Below are positions 2,510-37,460 of a stretch of 64,000 nucleotides of DNA, piece by piece; the first letter of the stretch is position 1, and every line of letters starts with the position of its first letter. The notes beneath the pieces were generated by a model. The model was given only the letters and a program-made list of their open reading frames with translations, had not been told where the DNA came from and made no database searches. The DNA is from Lachnospiraceae bacterium. Lineage in GTDB: Bacteria > Bacillota > Clostridia > Lachnospirales > Lachnospiraceae. The DNA lies in the NCBI GenBank assembly GCA_017624235.1, contig JAGANL010000002.1:1-64000 (forward strand), written 5' to 3'. Both the position numbers and the translations under genes were made by a program.

Positions 2510-4180
2510 ATGGGTTCAAATGAGGATTATTTAGATAACCTGCTTCAGTCCATGCTGGCGGAAGAAGGGGAGGCAGAAGCACAGAAGAGTCTGATTGATT
2601 CCGGTGAAACGGACAATGCCCAGGAAAATGAGGAAGTGGATCTGGATGCGCTGCTCAATAGTCTGGAAGGCATTGAAGACATTGTGCAGGAGAATGCCCA
2701 AGAGAAAGAGCAGGAAGAGACGGAAGAAGCGGAAAAAGATATCTGGGCGGTGGAAGAAGACGCAGCAGCTGAAGAGCAGCCGGAGAAAGAGCAGGATGAA
2801 ACCGGTGAGGATCAGGCAGAAACCAAAATGCTCAGTCCGGAAGAAATAGAAGCGATGTTTGCACAGATGGATGCGGAAGAGGCTTTGGAAGCCGGGCAGG
2901 AATCGGATGAGAAAATGTATTCGGATGAGGAGCTGCAGGAAGACGACGCGGAGAGTGGTGAATCGGAGGATGATCTGTTGGCGATGCTGGAGGGGATGGA
3001 AGAGCAGGATCCCGATTTAAATGAGATTAACAGTTTGTTAGAAAAGTCCGACCATCATGAAGCGGTTGACGATGATGTAATGGCTCTTCTGGATGAGGAC
3101 GAAGAAGCACAGGTATATCCTGCTTTTGAAATGGATGAAGCAGAACAGACTGATAGCGTGGATGATTCAGAGGCTTCGGAGAAACCGGAGAAATCTCGTC
3201 GAAAAAGAAAGGAACGGAAAAAGAGGGAAAAGGTGAAGGCTCCGAAAGAAAAGGCGGTCAAGGAAAAAAAGGAGGGGTTCTTTTCCAGATTATTTAAGGC
3301 CCTGACGGAAGAAGAGGAAAAAGTAAATACAGCAGATACCTATGATATGAATGCGGAGAATGAGGCAATTCTGCAGGAAATGGAACAGGAGGATGCCGCA
3401 ACCATTCCGGAGAAAAAGGGAAAGAAACCAAAAAAGGAGAAGAAAAAGAAAGAAAAGGAGCCCAAAAAGGAGAAGGCGAAAAAAGAGAAAAAACCAAAGA
3501 AGGAGAAGGTGAAAAAGGAAAAAGTACCGAAAGCACCTGCTCCGAAGGGAAAACCGCTGCCGAAAAAGAAGACGGCTGTTGTAGTTCTGTTTGCAGCGAC
3601 TGTTTTTGCAGCAGTTATGCTGTTTAGTGACTTTGTTCCGGGAATCATGGAGATACGGAAAGCCAGAGAAGCATTTGAGCAGGCAGATTACGAGACGACA
3701 TTTGCACTGCTGGCTGGCAGGGAACACAGGGAAGAAGAGGAAAACATATATCAGGCATCGTTGCTTGTAGCACAGATGCAGCGTTCGATGGATTCCTATT
3801 TGAATTACCAGAGGATGGGCATGGATATTCAGGCTTTGGATGCGTTGATCAAGGGTATCGGAAAATATGAAGAGGTATCAGCCGAGGCAGGTGAATTAGG
3901 TATACAGTCCAGAGTAGACGAAATATATACTGCAATCTTATCTGCATTAGATAGTGCTTACGGAATTTCAGAGGACGAGGCAAAAGAGATTTTTGCAGAA
4001 AAGGAGGATGATGTATATTATACGATTGCACTGAAGCGGGTACTGGGAATGGAGATTCCGGCAATAGGACATCAGGGAACGGAGTCTGCGGACGGCATGA
4101 TACAGGAAGTTGTTTCGGAGGAAGATGTTCCACAGGAAGATATGTTGGATGCAGAGAATGATTTTCTGAATGATTATTAG
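2510..4180 (+). CDS. Large highly charged single-pass membrane protein, function unknown
   Basis: The 556-aa protein has three parts. Residues 1-230 are very acidic (Glu/Asp/Gln-rich, low complexity). Residues about 235-350 are Lys/Glu-rich with repeated KKEKKPKKEK-type blocks. One hydrophobic helix follows at about 356-376 ('VVVLFAATVFAAVMLF'). The last ~180 residues are helical and TPR-like ('AREAFEQADYETTFALLAG') and probably lie outside the membrane. I chose ATG 2510 because TGGAGG lies 7 nt upstream; the longer frame runs into the upstream repeat. I recognise no family. The polarity suggests a cytoplasmic charged region tethered to an extracellular helical domain. Confidence 0.8.
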   Translation: MGSNEDYLDNLLQSMLAEEGEAEAQKSLIDSGETDNAQENEEVDLDALLNSLEGIEDIVQENAQEKEQEETEEAEKDIWAVEEDAAAEEQPEKEQDETGEDQAETKMLSPEEIEAMFAQMDAEEALEAGQESDEKMYSDEELQEDDAESGESEDDLLAMLEGMEEQDPDLNEINSLLEKSDHHEAVDDDVMALLDEDEEAQVYPAFEMDEAEQTDSVDDSEASEKPEKSRRKRKERKKREKVKAPKEKAVKEKKEGFFSRLFKALTEEEEKVNTADTYDMNAENEAILQEMEQEDAATIPEKKGKKPKKEKKKKEKEPKKEKAKKEKKPKKEKVKKEKVPKAPAPKGKPLPKKKTAVVVLFAATVFAAVMLFSDFVPGIMEIRKAREAFEQADYETTFALLAGREHREEEENIYQASLLVAQMQRSMDSYLNYQRMGMDIQALDALIKGIGKYEEVSAEAGELGIQSRVDEIYTAILSALDSAYGISEDEAKEIFAEKEDDVYYTIALKRVLGMEIPAIGHQGTESADGMIQEVVSEEDVPQEDMLDAENDFLNDY

Positions 4181-4218
4181 GATTTGCTCAGCAGCTCATT
4201 AGGAGGGAAGAAATTTTC

Positions 4219-4248
4219 TTGACAGATTTCAGACAATTGTAGTATGAT
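4219..4248 (+). promoter_or_regulatory. Strong sigma-A promoter of the structured RNA
   Basis: A perfect TTGACA (4219-4224) and TATGAT (4243-4248) are spaced by 18 bp. Transcription should begin near 4255, more than 440 nt ahead of the speA start codon. Confidence 0.75.
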
Positions 4249-4254
4249 TGTTCA

Positions 4255-4515
4255 TGTATTTGAGACAAAAGAGTAGGGTACTATTTTATCCTAAGGTCTT
4301 AAAAGCGATTATTACGGACCACTCCTTCGGGAGTTAAGGCCATACGGATAGCCGGGTCCACTGCCGACAGGCGAGCATTCGCCTTATTGATTGAGTTAAA
4401 AGCTCAGTTTTATAGGTTGGTTACTTTATAACCGAAATGCGTAATTACGCAAACTTGTGAAATGGTCAATAAAGAGTGGTAAAAGTATTATTGCTACATA
4501 GACTCTAAGTACCCG
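4255..4515 (+). ncRNA. Structured RNA of uncertain family before speA (raiA-like candidate)
   Basis: A non-coding stretch of about 260 nt is rich in hairpins. GGACC 4316-4320 pairs with GGTCC 4355-4359 and encloses ACTCC-TTCG-GGAGT. Further hairpins are AGGCGA/TCGCCT (4369-4384), TGAGTT/AGCTCA (4392-4406), GGTTA/TAACC (4419-4433) and the palindrome TGCGTAATTACGCA (4438-4451). GGGTACT (4276-4282) can close the whole by pairing with AGTACCC (4508-4514), or alternatively with AGTATT (4484-4489). It is not 6S (found elsewhere here), RNase P, tmRNA or SRP by their conserved blocks. Size and clade fit the clostridial raiA motif, but I cannot confirm this. It may be a stand-alone RNA or a long leader. 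Confidence 0.6.
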
Positions 4516-4619
4516 ATATCGAATCTGATCAAATTGTCAACAGAGATAGAAGACGAAGCTCTTGGTTTAAGGTTATCGTTTTTCTGTTTTTGTAGGCAGG
4601 CCATAAGAGGATGATAGAA

Positions 4620-4650
4620 AGCAGGTTGTTGTAATGCAGCCTGCTTTTTT
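4620..4650 (+). terminator. Terminator between the structured RNA and speA
   Basis: AGCAGG (4620-4625) and CCTGCT (4640-4645) pair and are followed by a T run, 50 nt before the speA start. It ends the upstream RNA or works as an attenuator for the polyamine operon. I see no clear promoter between it and speA, so read-through is plausible. Confidence 0.8.
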
Positions 4651-4700
4651 GCTTTGCAAGGGCGCTTGGAGCATGTTATCTGAGGAGAGGAAAAGGGAGT

Positions 4701-6158
4701 ATGGAAAAAGACGTAAAAATGGACCAGAATCGTGCACCAATCTATGAGGCCCTTCAGACATTCCGTCATATGCGTGTGGTACCTTTTGATGTTCCGGGAC
4801 ATAAGCATGGGCGCGGTAATCCGGAGCTTGCGGAATTTTTGGGTGAACAGTGTGTTAGCGTGGATGTGAACAGTATGAAGCCTCTGGATAATCTGTGCCA
4901 TCCAATCTCTGTAATCCGTGAAGCAGAGGAATTGACAGCAGAAGCCTTTGGAGCGGCACATGCCTTTCTGATGGTTGGAGGAACGACAAGCTCTGTACAA
5001 ACTATGGTGTTATCTGTATGTAAACGCGGCGACAAGATTATTCTGCCCAGAAATGTTCATCGGAGTGTCATCAATGCATTGGTTCTTTGTGGTGCAGTTC
5101 CGGTATATGTAAACCCGGAAGTAGACATCAGACTTGGTATTTCACTTGGTATGCGGAGAGAGCAGGTGGCGAAAGCAATCGAAAAGCATCCGGATGCAGT
5201 TGCAGTTCTTGTCAATAATCCTACTTATTACGGTATTTGCAGTGATTTAAAGGCAATTGTCAAAATGGCACATGATGCGGGAATGTATTGTCTAGCAGAT
5301 GAAGCGCATGGTACACACTTTTATTTTGGAGAACATATGCCGGCTTCGGCGATGGCCGCGGGTGCTGATTTGGCTGCCGTATCGATGCATAAGAGTGGAG
5401 GAAGTCTGACGCAGTCGAGTCTTCTTTTGACGGGACCCAATATCAATCCGGGACATGTCAGACAGATTATTAACCTGACGCAAACGACATCCGGCAGTTA
5501 TCTTTTGATGTCCAGTTTGGATATCAGCAGACGGAATCTTGCCCTCCGGGGGAAAGAGGTGTTTGCGAAGGTGGTGTCTATGGCACAGTATGCAAGAGAA
5601 GAGATCAATGCGATTGGTGGATATTATGCGTTTGGAAGAGAATTGATTAATGGAAATTCTGTTTTTGACTTTGATCCGACCAAGTTGAGTGTACACACCA
5701 GAGATATTGGTCTGGCAGGAATTGAAGTATATGATATTTTACGTGATGAATATGATATCCAGATTGAATTTGGTGATATTGGAAATATTCTTGCCTATCT
5801 GTCAATAGGAGATCGGCCGCAGGATCTGGAGCGGCTGGTAAGCGCGCTTGCGGAAATCCACCGTAGATATCAGACAGACAGCAGCGGACTTCTCAGTCAG
5901 GAGTATATTGATCCGGAGGTCGTAATCAGTCCGCAGGAGGCTTTTTACGCAAATAAGAAAAGTATTCCGCTGGAGGAAAGCGTTGGTTGCGTTTGTAGTG
6001 AATTTGTCATGTGTTATCCACCGGGTATACCGATTTTGGCGCCGGGAGAACGTATAACAAAAGAGATACTGGATTATATTCAATATGCAAAGATTAAGGG
6101 GTGCTCCATGACCGGACCAGAGGATTCGGAGATATTGAATATCAATGTATTGCGGTAA
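4701..6158 (+). CDS. speA: Orn/Lys/Arg decarboxylase family, probably arginine decarboxylase
   Basis: This PLP enzyme removes CO2 from a basic amino acid. The 485-aa size and fold-type I layout match the short Bacillus/Clostridia SpeA-type decarboxylases. The PLP aldimine motif 'SMHKSGG' gives Lys231, and the preceding 'ADEAHGTH' supplies the cofactor Asp and His. Substrate choice between arginine and lysine cannot be read from motifs alone. The neighbouring agmatinase gene argues strongly for arginine, making agmatine. ATG 4701 has AGGAGAGG about 10 nt upstream. It is the first gene of a five-gene polyamine operon, with an RNA element and terminator upstream. Confidence 0.88.
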   Translation: MEKDVKMDQNRAPIYEALQTFRHMRVVPFDVPGHKHGRGNPELAEFLGEQCVSVDVNSMKPLDNLCHPISVIREAEELTAEAFGAAHAFLMVGGTTSSVQTMVLSVCKRGDKIILPRNVHRSVINALVLCGAVPVYVNPEVDIRLGISLGMRREQVAKAIEKHPDAVAVLVNNPTYYGICSDLKAIVKMAHDAGMYCLADEAHGTHFYFGEHMPASAMAAGADLAAVSMHKSGGSLTQSSLLLTGPNINPGHVRQIINLTQTTSGSYLLMSSLDISRRNLALRGKEVFAKVVSMAQYAREEINAIGGYYAFGRELINGNSVFDFDPTKLSVHTRDIGLAGIEVYDILRDEYDIQIEFGDIGNILAYLSIGDRPQDLERLVSALAEIHRRYQTDSSGLLSQEYIDPEVVISPQEAFYANKKSIPLEESVGCVCSEFVMCYPPGIPILAPGERITKEILDYIQYAKIKGCSMTGPEDSEILNINVLR

Positions 6159-6170
6159 GGAGGGAAAGCG

Positions 6171-7022
6171 TTGGAATTATGGTTTAGTGAATTTCATGCA
6201 CCGGATGTAAAGCACAGCATACGGGTAGACAGACATTTATATTCACATAAGAGTGATTATCAGCAGATTGATATTTTTGACACACCGGAATTTGGACGTA
6301 TGCTGACGTTGGATGGAAATGTCATGCTGACAGAGAGAGATGAATTTATCTATGATGAAATGATTACACATGTTCCGATGGCAGTTCATCCGAATGTCAG
6401 GGATGTGTTGGTAATTGGTGCCGGTGACGGAGGCGTTGTCAAAGAGCTTACCAGATATAGCAGTATTCAGAAAATTGATCTTGTGGAAATGGATGAGCAG
6501 GTAATTGAGGCGTGCAGAACCTATCTTCCGGAAAATGCCTGCAGGTTGGATGATCCAAGGGTGCACATTTATTTTGATAATGCACTTCGATTTATCAGAC
6601 GCTGTAAGGAGGAATATGACCTGATTATTGTGGATTCCACGGATCCGTTTGGACCGTCGGAAGGATTTTTTACGAGGGAATTTTACGGTATATGTTATAA
6701 TGCGCTTCGCGAAGATGGCATTATGGTCAATCAGCAGGGCAGTCCTTTTTATAAGCACGATGCAGAGGAAATCAAACGCTGCCATAAACGGATCGTCACT
6801 ACATTTCCGGTCAGCAGAGTATATCAGGCCCATATTCCGACGTATGCAGCCGGCTATTGGCTCTTTGGATTTGCAAGCAAAAAATATCATCCCATTGATG
6901 ATTTTGATGCAGACAGATGGAAGCAGCTGGATCTGGAGACTCAGTATTACACGACCAGATTGCACATAGGGGCGTTTTACCTGCCTGCTTTTCTGGAAAA
7001 AATGCTTGAGGAGGTAGAGTAA
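6171..7022 (+). CDS. speE: Spermidine synthase family (polyamine aminopropyltransferase)
   Basis: SpeE proteins transfer an aminopropyl group from decarboxylated S-adenosylmethionine to putrescine. The 283-aa protein has the SAM-binding 'GAGDGG' (residues 83-88), the acidic 'VEMDEQV' strand end and 'DSTDPFGPSEGFF', which holds the catalytic Asp region. The start is TTG 6171, with AAGGAGGGA 7 nt upstream and no nearby ATG. It lies 12 nt after speA. No S-adenosylmethionine decarboxylase (speD) is in the window, and the same operon also carries the carboxyspermidine route, so its exact substrate is uncertain. Confidence 0.9.
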   Translation: MELWFSEFHAPDVKHSIRVDRHLYSHKSDYQQIDIFDTPEFGRMLTLDGNVMLTERDEFIYDEMITHVPMAVHPNVRDVLVIGAGDGGVVKELTRYSSIQKIDLVEMDEQVIEACRTYLPENACRLDDPRVHIYFDNALRFIRRCKEEYDLIIVDSTDPFGPSEGFFTREFYGICYNALREDGIMVNQQGSPFYKHDAEEIKRCHKRIVTTFPVSRVYQAHIPTYAAGYWLFGFASKKYHPIDDFDADRWKQLDLETQYYTTRLHIGAFYLPAFLEKMLEEVE

Positions 7023-7023
7023 G

Positions 7024-7878
7024 GTGAAGAAAAATGTGGAAACCTTTATCGGTTGTGAGGCGGAATATGAGGATGCGAAAATGGTTTTGTTCGGAGCGCC
7101 CTTTGACTCCACTACGAGCTTTCGTCCTGGAGCCAGATTCGGACCATCGGCAATCCGTCATGAAAGCTTCGGACTAGAGATGTACAGCATCTATCAGGAT
7201 AAGGATCTGAAGGATATACCGGTCTTTGACAGCGGGGATTTGGAGCTGTGCTTTGGAAGCAGTGAGTCGGCACTTTCGGATATTGAAGCGCATACGGGAC
7301 AGATTTTGAAAGACCGGAAGCTGCCGATTATGATCGGTGGAGAACATTTGGTGACGTTGGGGGCAGTCAGGGCTGTATGGAAAAATTATCCGGATCTGCA
7401 TATAATTCATTTTGATGCACATGCGGATCTGCGGGATGATTATCTAGGGGCAACCCTGAGTCATGCCTGTGTACTGCGGCGGTGTCATGAGTTAGTGGGA
7501 GATGGTAGGATCCATCAGTTTTGTATTCGAAGTGGTGAAAAAAATGAATTTGAATTTGCAGGAGGACATACAGACCTGCACCCGTTTCATTTTGAGGGAT
7601 TGAAGGAAGTCGTTGAATGGCTGATAGAAGCCAAAGCTCCGGTGTATTTTACCATAGATTTGGATTGCCTAGATCCGGCAGCATTTCCGGGAACCGGAAC
7701 ACCGGAGGCGGGCGGGGTTACCTTTCTGCAGCTGTTTGATGCTATCTGCGAGGTTTGCAGGACCAATGTGGTAGGTGCGGATATCAATGAGCTGGCACCG
7801 ATGCTGGATGCCAGCGGCGTTTCTACAGCGACTGCCTGTAAAGTGCTTCGGGAGCTTTTATTGGCTCTCGGCGAATGA
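7024..7878 (+). CDS. speB: Agmatinase (ureohydrolase family)
   Basis: Agmatinase hydrolyses agmatine to putrescine and urea with two Mn2+ ions. The 284-aa protein shows the ureohydrolase metal motifs: GGEH (105-108), DAHAD (131-135) and 'DLDCLDPAAFPG' (from Asp212). The start is GTG 7024, one base after the speE stop, with GAGGAGG in the end of speE. Together with the decarboxylase upstream this gives arginine to agmatine to putrescine. Formiminoglutamase or arginase are less likely given the neighbours. Confidence 0.93.
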   Translation: MKKNVETFIGCEAEYEDAKMVLFGAPFDSTTSFRPGARFGPSAIRHESFGLEMYSIYQDKDLKDIPVFDSGDLELCFGSSESALSDIEAHTGQILKDRKLPIMIGGEHLVTLGAVRAVWKNYPDLHIIHFDAHADLRDDYLGATLSHACVLRRCHELVGDGRIHQFCIRSGEKNEFEFAGGHTDLHPFHFEGLKEVVEWLIEAKAPVYFTIDLDCLDPAAFPGTGTPEAGGVTFLQLFDAICEVCRTNVVGADINELAPMLDASGVSTATACKVLRELLLALGE

Positions 7879-7944: not shown

Positions 7945-9204
7945 ATGAGTAGAGTATTGGTAATCGGATGCGGTGGTGTGGCCAGTGTTGCAATTAGAAA
8001 ATGCTGCCAGGTCAGTGAAGTATTTACGGAACTTTGCATCGCCAGCAGAACCAAGAAAAAATGTGATGAGCTGGCAGAAAAATTGATAGGACAAACTGCT
8101 ACCCGGATTACGACTGCCCAGGTAGATGCGGATGATGTACAGCAGGTGATTGATTTAATCAAAGCGTATCAGCCTGAACTGGTCATGAATATAGCATTGC
8201 CGTATCAGGATCTTACAATCATGGACGCATGTCTGGCTTGTGGTGTCAATTATATGGATACTGCCAATTATGAGCCGGAGGATACAGATGATCCGACATG
8301 GCGTGAAATCTATGAGAAACGCTGCAAGGAACAGGGATTTTCAGCATATTTTGACTACAGCTGGCAATGGGCCTACCGTGAAAAATTCGAAAAGGCAGGA
8401 CTGACAGCCCTTCTGGGATGTGGCTTTGATCCGGGTGTGACACAGGCTTATTGTGCATATGCGAAAAAGCATGAATTTGATACGATTGATACGATTGATA
8501 TTCTGGATTGCAACGGTGGAGACCATGGGTATGCGTTTGCGACGAATTTTAATCCGGAGGTGAATCTGCGCGAGGTTTCTGCTCCCGGCAGCTATTGGGA
8601 GGATGGGCATTGGGTGGAAATCCCTGCAATGAGCATAAAGCGGGAATATGAATTTGACTGTGTTGGTCAGAAGGATATGTATCTGCTTCACCATGAGGAA
8701 ATAGAATCTCTGGCAGTCAACATTCCGGAGGTAAAACGAATCCGTTTCTTTATGACGTTTGGACAGAGCTATTTGACATATATGAAGTGCTTGGAAAATG
8801 TCGGAATGCTTTCTACCGCACCGGTCAGCTTTGAGGGGCAGGAGATTGTGCCGATTAAGCTTTTAAAGGCACTTTTACCGGATCCTGCGAGTCTTGGACC
8901 GCGTACGCATGGAAAAACAAATATTGGCTGTATTTTTACAGGAGAGAAGGCGGGAGAGAGAAAAAGCTATTATCTCTACAATGTATGTGATCATCAGGAG
9001 TGCTACAAGGAAGTGGAAAGTCAGGCAATCAGCTATACCACGGGTGTTCCGGCAATGTGCGGAGCACTAATGCTGCTGACAGGAAAGTGGGACAAGAAGG
9101 GGGTTCATACAGTAGAAGAGTTTGATCCCGATCCGTTCCTGGAGGCATTGGAGCAATATGGACTTCCGAGACGCGAAAGCCATAATCCGGTACTGGTGGA
9201 TTAG
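7945..9204 (+). CDS. Carboxynorspermidine/carboxyspermidine dehydrogenase (saccharopine dehydrogenase family)
   Basis: This enzyme condenses putrescine (or diaminopropane) with aspartate semialdehyde and reduces the product with NADPH to carboxyspermidine. The 419-aa protein starts with a Rossmann motif ('VIGCGGVASVAIRK') and follows the saccharopine dehydrogenase fold, including 'ALLGCGFDPGVTQAYCAYA'. Genuine saccharopine dehydrogenase is unlikely because the next gene is the matching decarboxylase. ATG 7945 has AAAAAGGAG upstream. Length and gene order match the alternative spermidine pathway described in Vibrio, Campylobacter and many gut Firmicutes. Confidence 0.9.
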   Translation: MSRVLVIGCGGVASVAIRKCCQVSEVFTELCIASRTKKKCDELAEKLIGQTATRITTAQVDADDVQQVIDLIKAYQPELVMNIALPYQDLTIMDACLACGVNYMDTANYEPEDTDDPTWREIYEKRCKEQGFSAYFDYSWQWAYREKFEKAGLTALLGCGFDPGVTQAYCAYAKKHEFDTIDTIDILDCNGGDHGYAFATNFNPEVNLREVSAPGSYWEDGHWVEIPAMSIKREYEFDCVGQKDMYLLHHEEIESLAVNIPEVKRIRFFMTFGQSYLTYMKCLENVGMLSTAPVSFEGQEIVPIKLLKALLPDPASLGPRTHGKTNIGCIFTGEKAGERKSYYLYNVCDHQECYKEVESQAISYTTGVPAMCGALMLLTGKWDKKGVHTVEEFDPDPFLEALEQYGLPRRESHNPVLVD

Positions 9205-9206
9205 TG

Positions 9207-10439
9207 ATGAACAGGATAGAAAACCGCCCGTCATTTTGTCTGTTAAATGGGAAACTCCCGCAAGAGATTTTTTCAGTATTGCCGACGCCCTGTTATATCA
9301 TAGAGGAAGCAGGGCTGCAAAAAAATGGAGAGATTCTTTCTTCGATTATAAGGAATACCGGATGTAAAATACTTCTTGCACAGAAAGCATTTTCAAATTA
9401 TGATTTTTATCCGTTATTATCCGATTATCTTTCCGGTACAGAAGCCAGCGGACTTTTTGAGGCGAGACTCGGAGCAGAAAAAATGCCGAAAAAGGAAGTA
9501 CATGTGTTTTGCGCGGCATACCGTGAGAAGGAATTTGATGAGCTGTTAACTTATGCAGATCATATTGTATTCAATTCACCGGGACAGCTGAAAAGATTTG
9601 GACCAAAGGCAAAGGAAATCGGAAAAAGTATTGGACTTCGTATCAATCCACAATGCTCCACACAGGAGGGACATGCCATTTACGACCCTTGTGCACCGAC
9701 AAGCCGTCTGGGCACCACACGAGAAATATGGGATATGCAAATGACGGAGGAATTGGTGGAGCTTCTGGATGGTCTTCATTTTCACACACTTTGCGAACAG
9801 GATGCGGATGCACTGCAATTGACTTTGCATGCTGTGGAAGAGCAATTTGCCGATATTTTGCCCCGGATGAAGTGGCTTAATATGGGGGGCGGACATCATA
9901 TTACGCGTGAAGGCTATGATATTCCGCTTCTGGAAAAACTGATTATCGGAGTACAAAATCAGTGGAATGTAGAAGTCTATTTGGAGCCGGGCGAGGCGGT
10001 GGCGCTGAATGCGGGGTATCTGGCAGCCAGGGTTCTGGATATCGTACAAAATCACGATACGAAGATTGCAATCCTGGATGTCAGTGCTGCCTGCCATATG
10101 CCGGATGTCATAGAAATGCCGTATACACCACCTCTTTATGGAGAAATCTCAGAAAAGGAAGGAGCATATTCTTATATTCTGGCAGGACCGACTTGTCTTG
10201 CCGGAGATGTGATTGGGCGCTACTGCTTCGAGCAGCCGCTTCAAATCGGGGATATGATTCTTTTTGGGGATATGGCAATTTATTCTACATGTAAAAACAA
10301 CACGTTCAACGGAATGTCGCTGCCAAATATATGGAAAAGAGGGACGGATGGGAAACTCGAACAGCTTACGGATTTTGGGTATCAGGATTTTTCGATGAGG
10401 CTGGGAAGAAGGAAAAGTGATATTTCCAAAAAGAATTGA
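9207..10439 (+). CDS. nspC: Carboxynorspermidine/carboxyspermidine decarboxylase
   Basis: NspC removes CO2 from carboxyspermidine to give spermidine. It is a PLP-dependent alanine racemase-fold (fold type III) enzyme. The 410-aa protein has the N-terminal PLP lysine in 'LLAQKAF' (Lys60), the phosphate-binding 'MGGGHHITREGYD', 'EPGEAVALNAGY' and the C-terminal catalytic-site 'GPTCLAGDVIG'. ATG 9207 directly follows the previous stop; a GTG at 9204 overlaps it by one base. It is the last gene of the polyamine operon. Confidence 0.93.
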   Translation: MNRIENRPSFCLLNGKLPQEIFSVLPTPCYIIEEAGLQKNGEILSSIIRNTGCKILLAQKAFSNYDFYPLLSDYLSGTEASGLFEARLGAEKMPKKEVHVFCAAYREKEFDELLTYADHIVFNSPGQLKRFGPKAKEIGKSIGLRINPQCSTQEGHAIYDPCAPTSRLGTTREIWDMQMTEELVELLDGLHFHTLCEQDADALQLTLHAVEEQFADILPRMKWLNMGGGHHITREGYDIPLLEKLIIGVQNQWNVEVYLEPGEAVALNAGYLAARVLDIVQNHDTKIAILDVSAACHMPDVIEMPYTPPLYGEISEKEGAYSYILAGPTCLAGDVIGRYCFEQPLQIGDMILFGDMAIYSTCKNNTFNGMSLPNIWKRGTDGKLEQLTDFGYQDFSMRLGRRKSDISKKN

Positions 10440-37236: not shown

Positions 37237-37241
37237 AAAAG

Positions 37242-37460
37242 TAACCTGAGATGTACGATAACTCCTGCTATTTTGAACCTACATTTACTTTAAACGGGAT
37301 TCCTACATCATTGCACGGCTGTCAAGCCCCCACTTTACTGTGCTGCTATGTAAGGCAGACAGAAAAGGATTGGAGGGGAAGGCAAAAGTGTGATTGCGGT
37401 CGCCCACCTAGCTTAGCTAGGAGTCAAAGTGCAGGAAGCGGCATTTTGGGGATATACAAA
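37242..37460 (+). ncRNA. ssrS: 6S RNA
   Basis: 6S RNA binds housekeeping RNA polymerase and lowers transcription in slow growth. The 5' end 'ACCTGAGATGTACG' resembles E. coli 6S 'CTCTGAGATGTTCG', and the 3' end 'GCGGCATTTTGGGGAT' resembles 'GCGGCATCTCGGAGAT'. CCTGAGATG (37245-37253) pairs throughout with CATTTTGGG (37442-37450), giving the closing stem of the rod. The interior has 'CTATTTTGAACCTACAT', which I associate with clostridial 6S. About 219 nt, flanked by its own promoter and terminator. Confidence 0.85.

Follow-up and report, generated by a model that had tools for sequence, protein, structure and literature searches.

Polyamines occur in large amounts, for the most part in association with RNA. 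The published spermidine riboswitch found in the literature (Salvail et al., 2023) is a rare variant of the SAM-I riboswitch and is unrelated to the RNA described here. According to passages of its report (PMC10853860), this variant was aligned from 13 representatives, lies ahead of polyamine genes, and acts as an OFF switch via an intrinsic terminator and an antiterminator; before it, no definitive spermidine riboswitch had come out of numerous attempts, most of them unpublished. The RNA analyzed here resembles the SAM-I variant in being a leader of polyamine genes and in the type of mechanism proposed for it, but it has helices other than those of the SAM-I fold. Since this architecture differs and no SAM-I match was obtained, the RNA was placed outside the SAM-I variant class. 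It was seen at more than 180 loci in all, compared with the 13 aligned representatives named in those passages. The odc1 element is likewise a leader element of a polyamine gene, but it is built around an upstream ORF according to part of PMC8632094, whereas a conserved ORF preceded by an evident ribosome site was not seen in the RNA described here.

A small part of the RNA belongs to the Rfam family RF02440, SpF59_sRNA (Streptococcus sRNA SpF59, ldcC RNA), whose link to the pneumococcal transcripts F59 and SN20 rests on the Rfam name and the published coordinates. F59 has 82 nt in a table of PMC3395615, and SN20 is listed as 318 nt, spanning F59 between SP0915 and SP0916 (parts of PMC2887815 and PMC3395615). 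SN20 was proposed as a possible FMN switch from a shared motif in a section of PMC2887815, and SP0916 was reported as an arginine decarboxylase in the title of PMC7531197. The existence of SN20, a short transcript from this pneumococcal region, was counted in favor of the riboswitch reading. The by-name "ldcC RNA" in Rfam suggests that the gene link had already been noticed by someone. A search of open-licence PMC returned no paper on "ldcC RNA" or the "ldcC motif" and no report of the RNA as a riboswitch. Judged from sequence analysis, the leader RNA is a candidate riboswitch that quite probably binds spermidine or a close polyamine and ends transcription before the polyamine genes.

Extent and Rfam identity of the leader RNA

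The RNA was located in the window, i.e., the whole analyzed stretch of 64,000 nucleotides of a Lachnospiraceae contig, within the tract bounded by an ORF that ends at 4180 and by the speA-like gene, which starts at 4701 in the ORF list (Table 1). The promoter has an 18-nt spacer and matches 11 of 12 consensus positions, and judging from its location, transcription should start at about 4255. Of 63 loci, 53 likewise had promoter-like sites on the 5′ side of the RNA, compared with 8 of 63 shuffled ones, and for 49 loci transcript lengths of 292-452 nt were predicted. The predicted fold of 4262-4660 had a free energy of -133.1 kcal/mol (z = -7.46), and none of 100 dinucleotide shuffles was equally stable. 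The conserved folded RNA of around 240 bases (4276-4514) alone had -79.7 kcal/mol (z = -5.63), with 0 of 200 shuffles as stable. The preliminary description of this DNA had claimed a structured RNA with its own promoter ahead of a polyamine operon, which was borne out by the promoter match and the fold z-score, and its positions were confirmed for the hairpin with the UUCG loop (4321-4334), for the palindromic one, and for the closing pair of 7 bp. The promoter at 4219 and the end of the terminator at around 4650 mark the limits of the whole feature. Elsewhere in the window, the 3′ end of a 23S rRNA gene (RF02541) lies at the left edge (1-275), and 6S RNA (RF00013) was matched at 37240-37456 with 64.7 bits (gathering cut-off 46.4).

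Table 1. Coordinates of the leader RNA elements and the downstream operon in the window
Feature	Position	Strand	Remark
Sigma-70 type promoter	4219..4248	+	-35 TTGACA 4219-4224, -10 TATGAT 4243-4248
Full structured RNA, candidate aptamer, P1 to P1	4276..4514	+	R1 match and fold z
P1 5′ strand GGGTACT	4276..4282	+	Pairs with 4508-4514
P2 5′ strand AGCGAT	4304..4309	+	Pairs with 4490-4495
Peripheral domain P3/P4, UUCG hairpin and CCATACGGAYAGCC loop	4316..4367	+	Only Rfam-known part (RF02440)
P5 hairpin AGGCGA/TCGCCT	4369..4384	+	5/5 pairs changed on both sides in A1
P6 5′ strand TTATTGAT	4384..4391	+	Pairs with GTCAATAA 4465-4472
Small hairpin GAG..CTC	4393..4405	+	3/3 pairs changed on both sides
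P7 5′ strand TTTTATAGGTT	4408..4418	+	Pairs with 4452-4462
P8 hairpin	4419..4433	+	92.2% of cells paired
P9 hairpin, perfect palindrome TGCGTAATTACGCA	4438..4451	+	77.0% of cells paired
Most conserved core ACTTGTGAAA..GTCAATAAAGAGTGGTAAAAGTA..TTGCTACATAGACTCT	4453..4506	+	R2 (core alone) and R1 agree on 25/398 phylum genomes
P10, AGAGT 4473-4477 with ACTCT 4502-4506	4473..4506	+	96.5% of cells paired
P2 3′ strand ATTGCT	4490..4495	+	Pairs with 4304-4309
P1 3′ strand AGTACCC	4508..4514	+	Pairs with 4276-4282
Intrinsic terminator	4618..4650	+	-17.5 kcal/mol; T-run
speA-like Orn/Lys/Arg decarboxylase, first gene	4701..6158	+	Best NCBIfam match LdcC family
speE, spermidine synthase	6171..7022	+	TIGR00417 above cut-off
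speB, agmatinase	7024..7878	+	TIGR01230 above cut-off
Carboxy(nor)spermidine synthase-like dehydrogenase ("lys1")	7945..9204	+	NF043000 399 bits, cut-off 800
nspC, carboxynorspermidine decarboxylase	9204..10439	+	TIGR01047 above cut-off

RF02440 was the only Rfam match in 4150-4720 at E ≤ 1, and its 67.5 bits exceeded the curated gathering cut-off of 37.2. The model comprises 54 positions, under a quarter of the full RNA, and does not describe the RNA as a whole. These positions correspond to the P3/P4 domain, so the earlier statement that the RNA was unidentified fails for 54 nt and holds for the remainder, which had no Rfam match. In the same scan, which the preliminary description had named as a check, raiA (RF03072), SAM-I, the other SAM families, and the other Rfam riboswitches gave no match in 4150-4720 at E ≤ 1, and all these identities were rejected. 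The raiA motif had been considered because of its size and clade: raiA RNAs occur in Firmicutes and RF03072 has near 210 positions, but its covariance model did not match the window RNA. A raiA search of the whole genome from which the window comes found none either, a result that is weak alone, as the control genomes also gave zero matches. RF02440 was matched in one of 14 control genomes, Lactococcus lactis.

Seven loci (L187, L189, L246, L247, L261, L262, and L263) lacked the RF02440 domain by reading and retained the remainder of the RNA, and for L187 and L189 an Rfam scan (E ≤ 0.01) reported no family at the RNA. Since speA or speD nonetheless follows the RNA in all seven, the Rfam entry, typed as "Gene; sRNA", represents a side domain that is dispensable. 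The RNA modeled here at 238 positions includes this 54-nt domain and reaches far beyond it.

Homologues and the genes downstream of them

Among 200 genomes from the family to which the window belongs, 36 matched RF02440, as did 18 of 398 genomes from its phylum. An exact 18-mer of its loop occurred in at least 118 contig stretches of a collection of named genomes; hosts among the matches listed were Paenibacillus, Bacillus, Neobacillus, Faecalibacterium, Blautia, and Acidaminococcus, and the matches listed also included a Synergistaceae MAG and a Spirochaetes MAG. A pattern search located the landmarks in 151 of the initial 165 loci. After exclusion of 11 odd loci by name and of others for length or missing ends, 117 loci were left, which became 64 once near relatives were removed. 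With 18 of these set aside by eye, the other 46 were used to train the full-length model R1 (238 positions, 52 pairs), and an alignment of 46 loci showed conservation reaching far past the Rfam domain. A second model, R2, covers only the 56-position 3′ core and was trained on 36 of 39 non-redundant core segments, taken from the 135 of 172 loci with a pattern-found core. The tests described below used 64 loci for P1, 63 for P2, 59 for the antiterminator, and 131 for the terminator count.

R1 matched 99 of 100 and 65 of 65 loci, i.e., 164 of the 165 first fetched, 46 of the 165 being its own training rows. The exception, L097 from a Hellea MAG, was rejected as a family member, its 18-mer being a chance match without an R1 match. 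In the window, R1 covered 4279-4511 at 220 bits, the window sequence itself being one of its training rows. Among the same genomes searched with RF02440, R1 found the RNA in 51 of the 200 from the family (RF02440: 36) and 25 of the 398 from the phylum (RF02440: 18), and R2 recovered the identical 25. The restriction of the RNA to 25 of 398 sampled phylum genomes was counted against the riboswitch reading.

To assess gene association, the closest downstream gene that matched one of seven query proteins and lay on the strand of the RNA was recorded. Among 172 loci, this gene was speA in 62, speD in 58, lys1 in 28, and potA in 16, giving 164 loci, 158 of them non-redundant; five loci had no room and three were without an assigned gene (L013, L149 with only 475 nt of contig, and L097). 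The distance from the core to the gene was 242-664 nt, with a median of 376. A further 20 loci had speA, speD, or lys1 in 19 cases and no room in one, so that speA, speD, lys1, or potA was nearest in 183 of the 186 loci with room. The PotA of L050 scored above two curated polyamine-transporter cut-offs. Intervening ORFs were sought in 20 loci, and one was found in L112, which was counted against the riboswitch reading; this ORF of 132 aa, PII-like by eye, separates the RNA from potA and lies about 220 nt beyond the core on its 3′ side. In the window, the operon order is speA-speE-speB-lys1-nspC. The speA-like product matched the LdcC family far under the curated cut-off, and the names of both this gene and lys1 rest on matches below the respective cut-offs.

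With this gene association and the covariation reported below, the RNA is a conserved structured leader tied to one metabolic pathway. Since one RNA precedes both synthesis and import genes of this pathway, the arrangement is typical of an end-product riboswitch. Furthermore, the RNA is constant while its neighbor varies among a decarboxylase, AdoMet decarboxylase, the carboxyspermidine route, and an importer, which argues for a shared end product and points most simply to spermidine. Gene association alone fits spermidine, putrescine, agmatine, or decarboxylated SAM alike. In the associated pathways putrescine comes before spermidine, and spermidine/putrescine is what the importer family is annotated for. 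Both points would fit a leader that uses the same terminator mechanism to sense another pathway molecule (putrescine, agmatine, arginine, SAM, or decarboxylated SAM). We consider such a ligand unlikely, as spermidine is the simplest product common to the speA-speE, speD, and lys1-nspC operons, and for SAM-type ligands the absence of any Rfam SAM family match in 4150-4720 at E ≤ 1 also counts against it.

The Rfam type of RF02440 and the short transcript reported in S. pneumoniae (parts of PMC2887815 and PMC3395615) would fit a trans-acting sRNA that ends at its own terminator, with the position before polyamine genes being mere linkage. This explanation was judged very improbable, because the neighbor alternates among four unrelated genes of one pathway with the RNA constant in cis, and because the terminator arm coevolves with an internal strand of the RNA.

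Secondary structure and covariation

In the MAFFT alignment A1, 96.2% of the cells were paired, compared with 27-43% when the partners were slid by 1-3 columns. Changes on both sides occurred in 15 of the 52 pairs, compared with 8.8 in shuffles, and 0 of 500 shuffles reached as high a value. The covariation analysis suggested in the preliminary description thus agreed with its claim of a conserved RNA, whose elements recur among homologues with covariation in several helices. In a model-fitted alignment of 99 loci, which leans to structure, 33 pairs changed on both sides compared with 14.5 in shuffles. P6 (99.1% of cells paired) was nearly invariant with zero double changes in A1, and P7 (98.9%) and P10 had one-sided changes only in this alignment. 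In L126 and L186, P10 reads GAGC/GCTC. Since P3, P6, P7, and P10 are nearly invariant in A1, they have little covariation support there. In L015 and its kin, an A-U pair of P3 is replaced by C-G and a G-C pair of the inner helix by C-G.

The long-range helices were examined by comparing each arm paired with its own partner and with partners from other loci; the resulting p values assume independent loci after removal of near relatives only. As a test of the whole P1 flanks was mixed with the conserved P2, the variable arms were tested apart. The P1 arms had -15.8 kcal/mol with their own partners and -13.0 kcal/mol with swapped ones (p = 7e-5; 64 loci, taken as independent), and the corresponding values for P2 were -9.5 and -6.9 kcal/mol (p = 1.8e-10; 63 loci, taken as independent). 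P2 crosses P10, and therefore a pseudoknot enclosed by P1 is predicted. P10 of the window has a competitor in an extension of P1 (4295-4299/4500-4504). The switch proposed earlier, in which GGGTACT would pair alternatively with AGTATT, found no support and was rejected, as GGGTACT forms the 5′ side of P1, the closing helix. Two groups of loci carry additional elements. An extra hairpin (e.g., AACCGC..GCGGTT) follows GCCGA in the potA-type loci L050, L114, L116, and L153 and in L147, and a GGC..GCC-like hairpin is inserted in the core between UUUGCU and GACUCU in L017, L019, L020, and L023.

The speF leader peptide is an example of polyamine sensing via a leader peptide. A leader read by a protein, or by a ribosome on a short upstream ORF, without direct ligand binding has a further precedent in the odc1 uORF element (part of PMC8632094), and ORFs of at least 12 codons lie inside the RNA in 64 of 64 loci. 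However, the base pairs covary, and none of the five short ORFs in the window has a clear Shine-Dalgarno sequence by eye. In addition, 3 of the 36 rows of alignment A3 have CTTGTAAAA in place of the GTG within CTTGTGAAA, and the length of the stretch that follows differs among rows, including by non-multiples of three. The leader peptide reading was consequently rejected, and reading by a protein or ribosome in general appears quite unlikely.

Terminator, antiterminator, and the proposed switch

Terminators, defined as a hairpin with ΔG ≤ -8 followed by a T-run within 260 nt 3′ of the RNA, were found in 126 of 131 loci, compared with 2 of 60 mononucleotide shuffles. In the window, the strong hairpin and T-run precede speA, as the preliminary description had held in proposing that a terminator permits attenuation of the operon. 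The 5′ arm of this terminator, GCAGGTTGTTGTAAT (from 4621; 4621-4635 with the arm in full), has gapped complementarity to 4439-4459, which includes the ACUUGUG strand at 4453-4459. Across the family, the arm is often GCAAGU-like and complementary to a near-invariant ACUUGUG strand together with the variable P9 3′ strand, both of which belong to the proposed antiterminator.

This complementarity is kept through sequence change. Own arms gave -14.0 kcal/mol and swapped arms -11.1 kcal/mol (p = 6e-7; 59 loci, taken as independent), the variable part alone gave p = 0.002, and six control segments of the RNA gave p values of 0.30-0.68. The best partner of the arm in the entire leader was the ACUUGUG/P9 3′ segment in 45 of 59 loci and lay elsewhere in 14. 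In a search for ungapped helices, 40 of 118 best helices fell on the ACUUGUG segment, compared with 73 of 2360 with shuffled arms; the longest, with G-U pairs included, had 13 bp in L026 and L161, 12 in L102, and 11 in L145. In the Bacillus/Paenibacillus loci, the best ungapped partner was mostly the P2 3′ strand or elsewhere, and the segment fitted only with internal loops. The mutually exclusive pairing suspected earlier is supported for the terminator 5′ arm and the ACUUGUG strand, and not for GGGTACT.

The terminator counts and the swap test indicate a mutually exclusive expression platform across the family, which is weak in the window itself. Here, the antiterminator ranks with the weaker members of the family (-6.9 for the short arm); a longer arm forms a duplex of -14.1 with the family segment, and other partners are better (-17.7). 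Minimum free energy folding gave -130.1 for the core plus terminator and -102.4 for the forced antiterminator. This balance favors core and terminator without ligand, and therefore kinetics or a default-off state would be needed at this locus.

We infer that the RNA binds spermidine directly and acts in the OFF direction, the latter following from the use of a core strand by the antiterminator and from pathway logic. At low ligand levels, the nascent terminator 5′ arm would capture the ACUUGUG strand, and with this antiterminator formed, the polymerase would read into the polyamine genes. Bound ligand would stabilize the core and keep ACUUGUG in P7; the terminator arm would then be freed, the terminator would form, and transcription would stop.

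Going by sequence comparison, we further predict, with somewhat better than even confidence, that this RNA represents the most widespread polyamine riboswitch class yet, a new pseudoknotted spermidine aptamer that switches off synthesis and uptake across Firmicutes and that was hidden because only its dispensable domain had been filed as a streptococcal sRNA. If so, it would explain polyamine control in many Firmicutes, given its presence in the family and phylum genomes counted above, and would provide a second fold, unrelated to the first, in which to study how RNA distinguishes a given polycation from bulk charge. An Rfam sRNA family would moreover become part of a riboswitch.

Several other features were observed around the leaders. 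In the window, the interval separating the core from the terminator is predicted to form a long A/U-rich hairpin at about 4534-4600; a T-run is present at 4587-4591, and the hairpin could act as a second pause or termination site. A c-di-GMP-I riboswitch lies at 2514-2605 of L031, on the strand opposite the polyamine leader and about 1 kb away from it. In L245 (418-1011; G196:C59:11617-12210), the RNA occurs twice in tandem ahead of speD-speA. The copies are nearly identical, both have a terminator-like hairpin after them, and this duplicated leader resembles tandem riboswitches.
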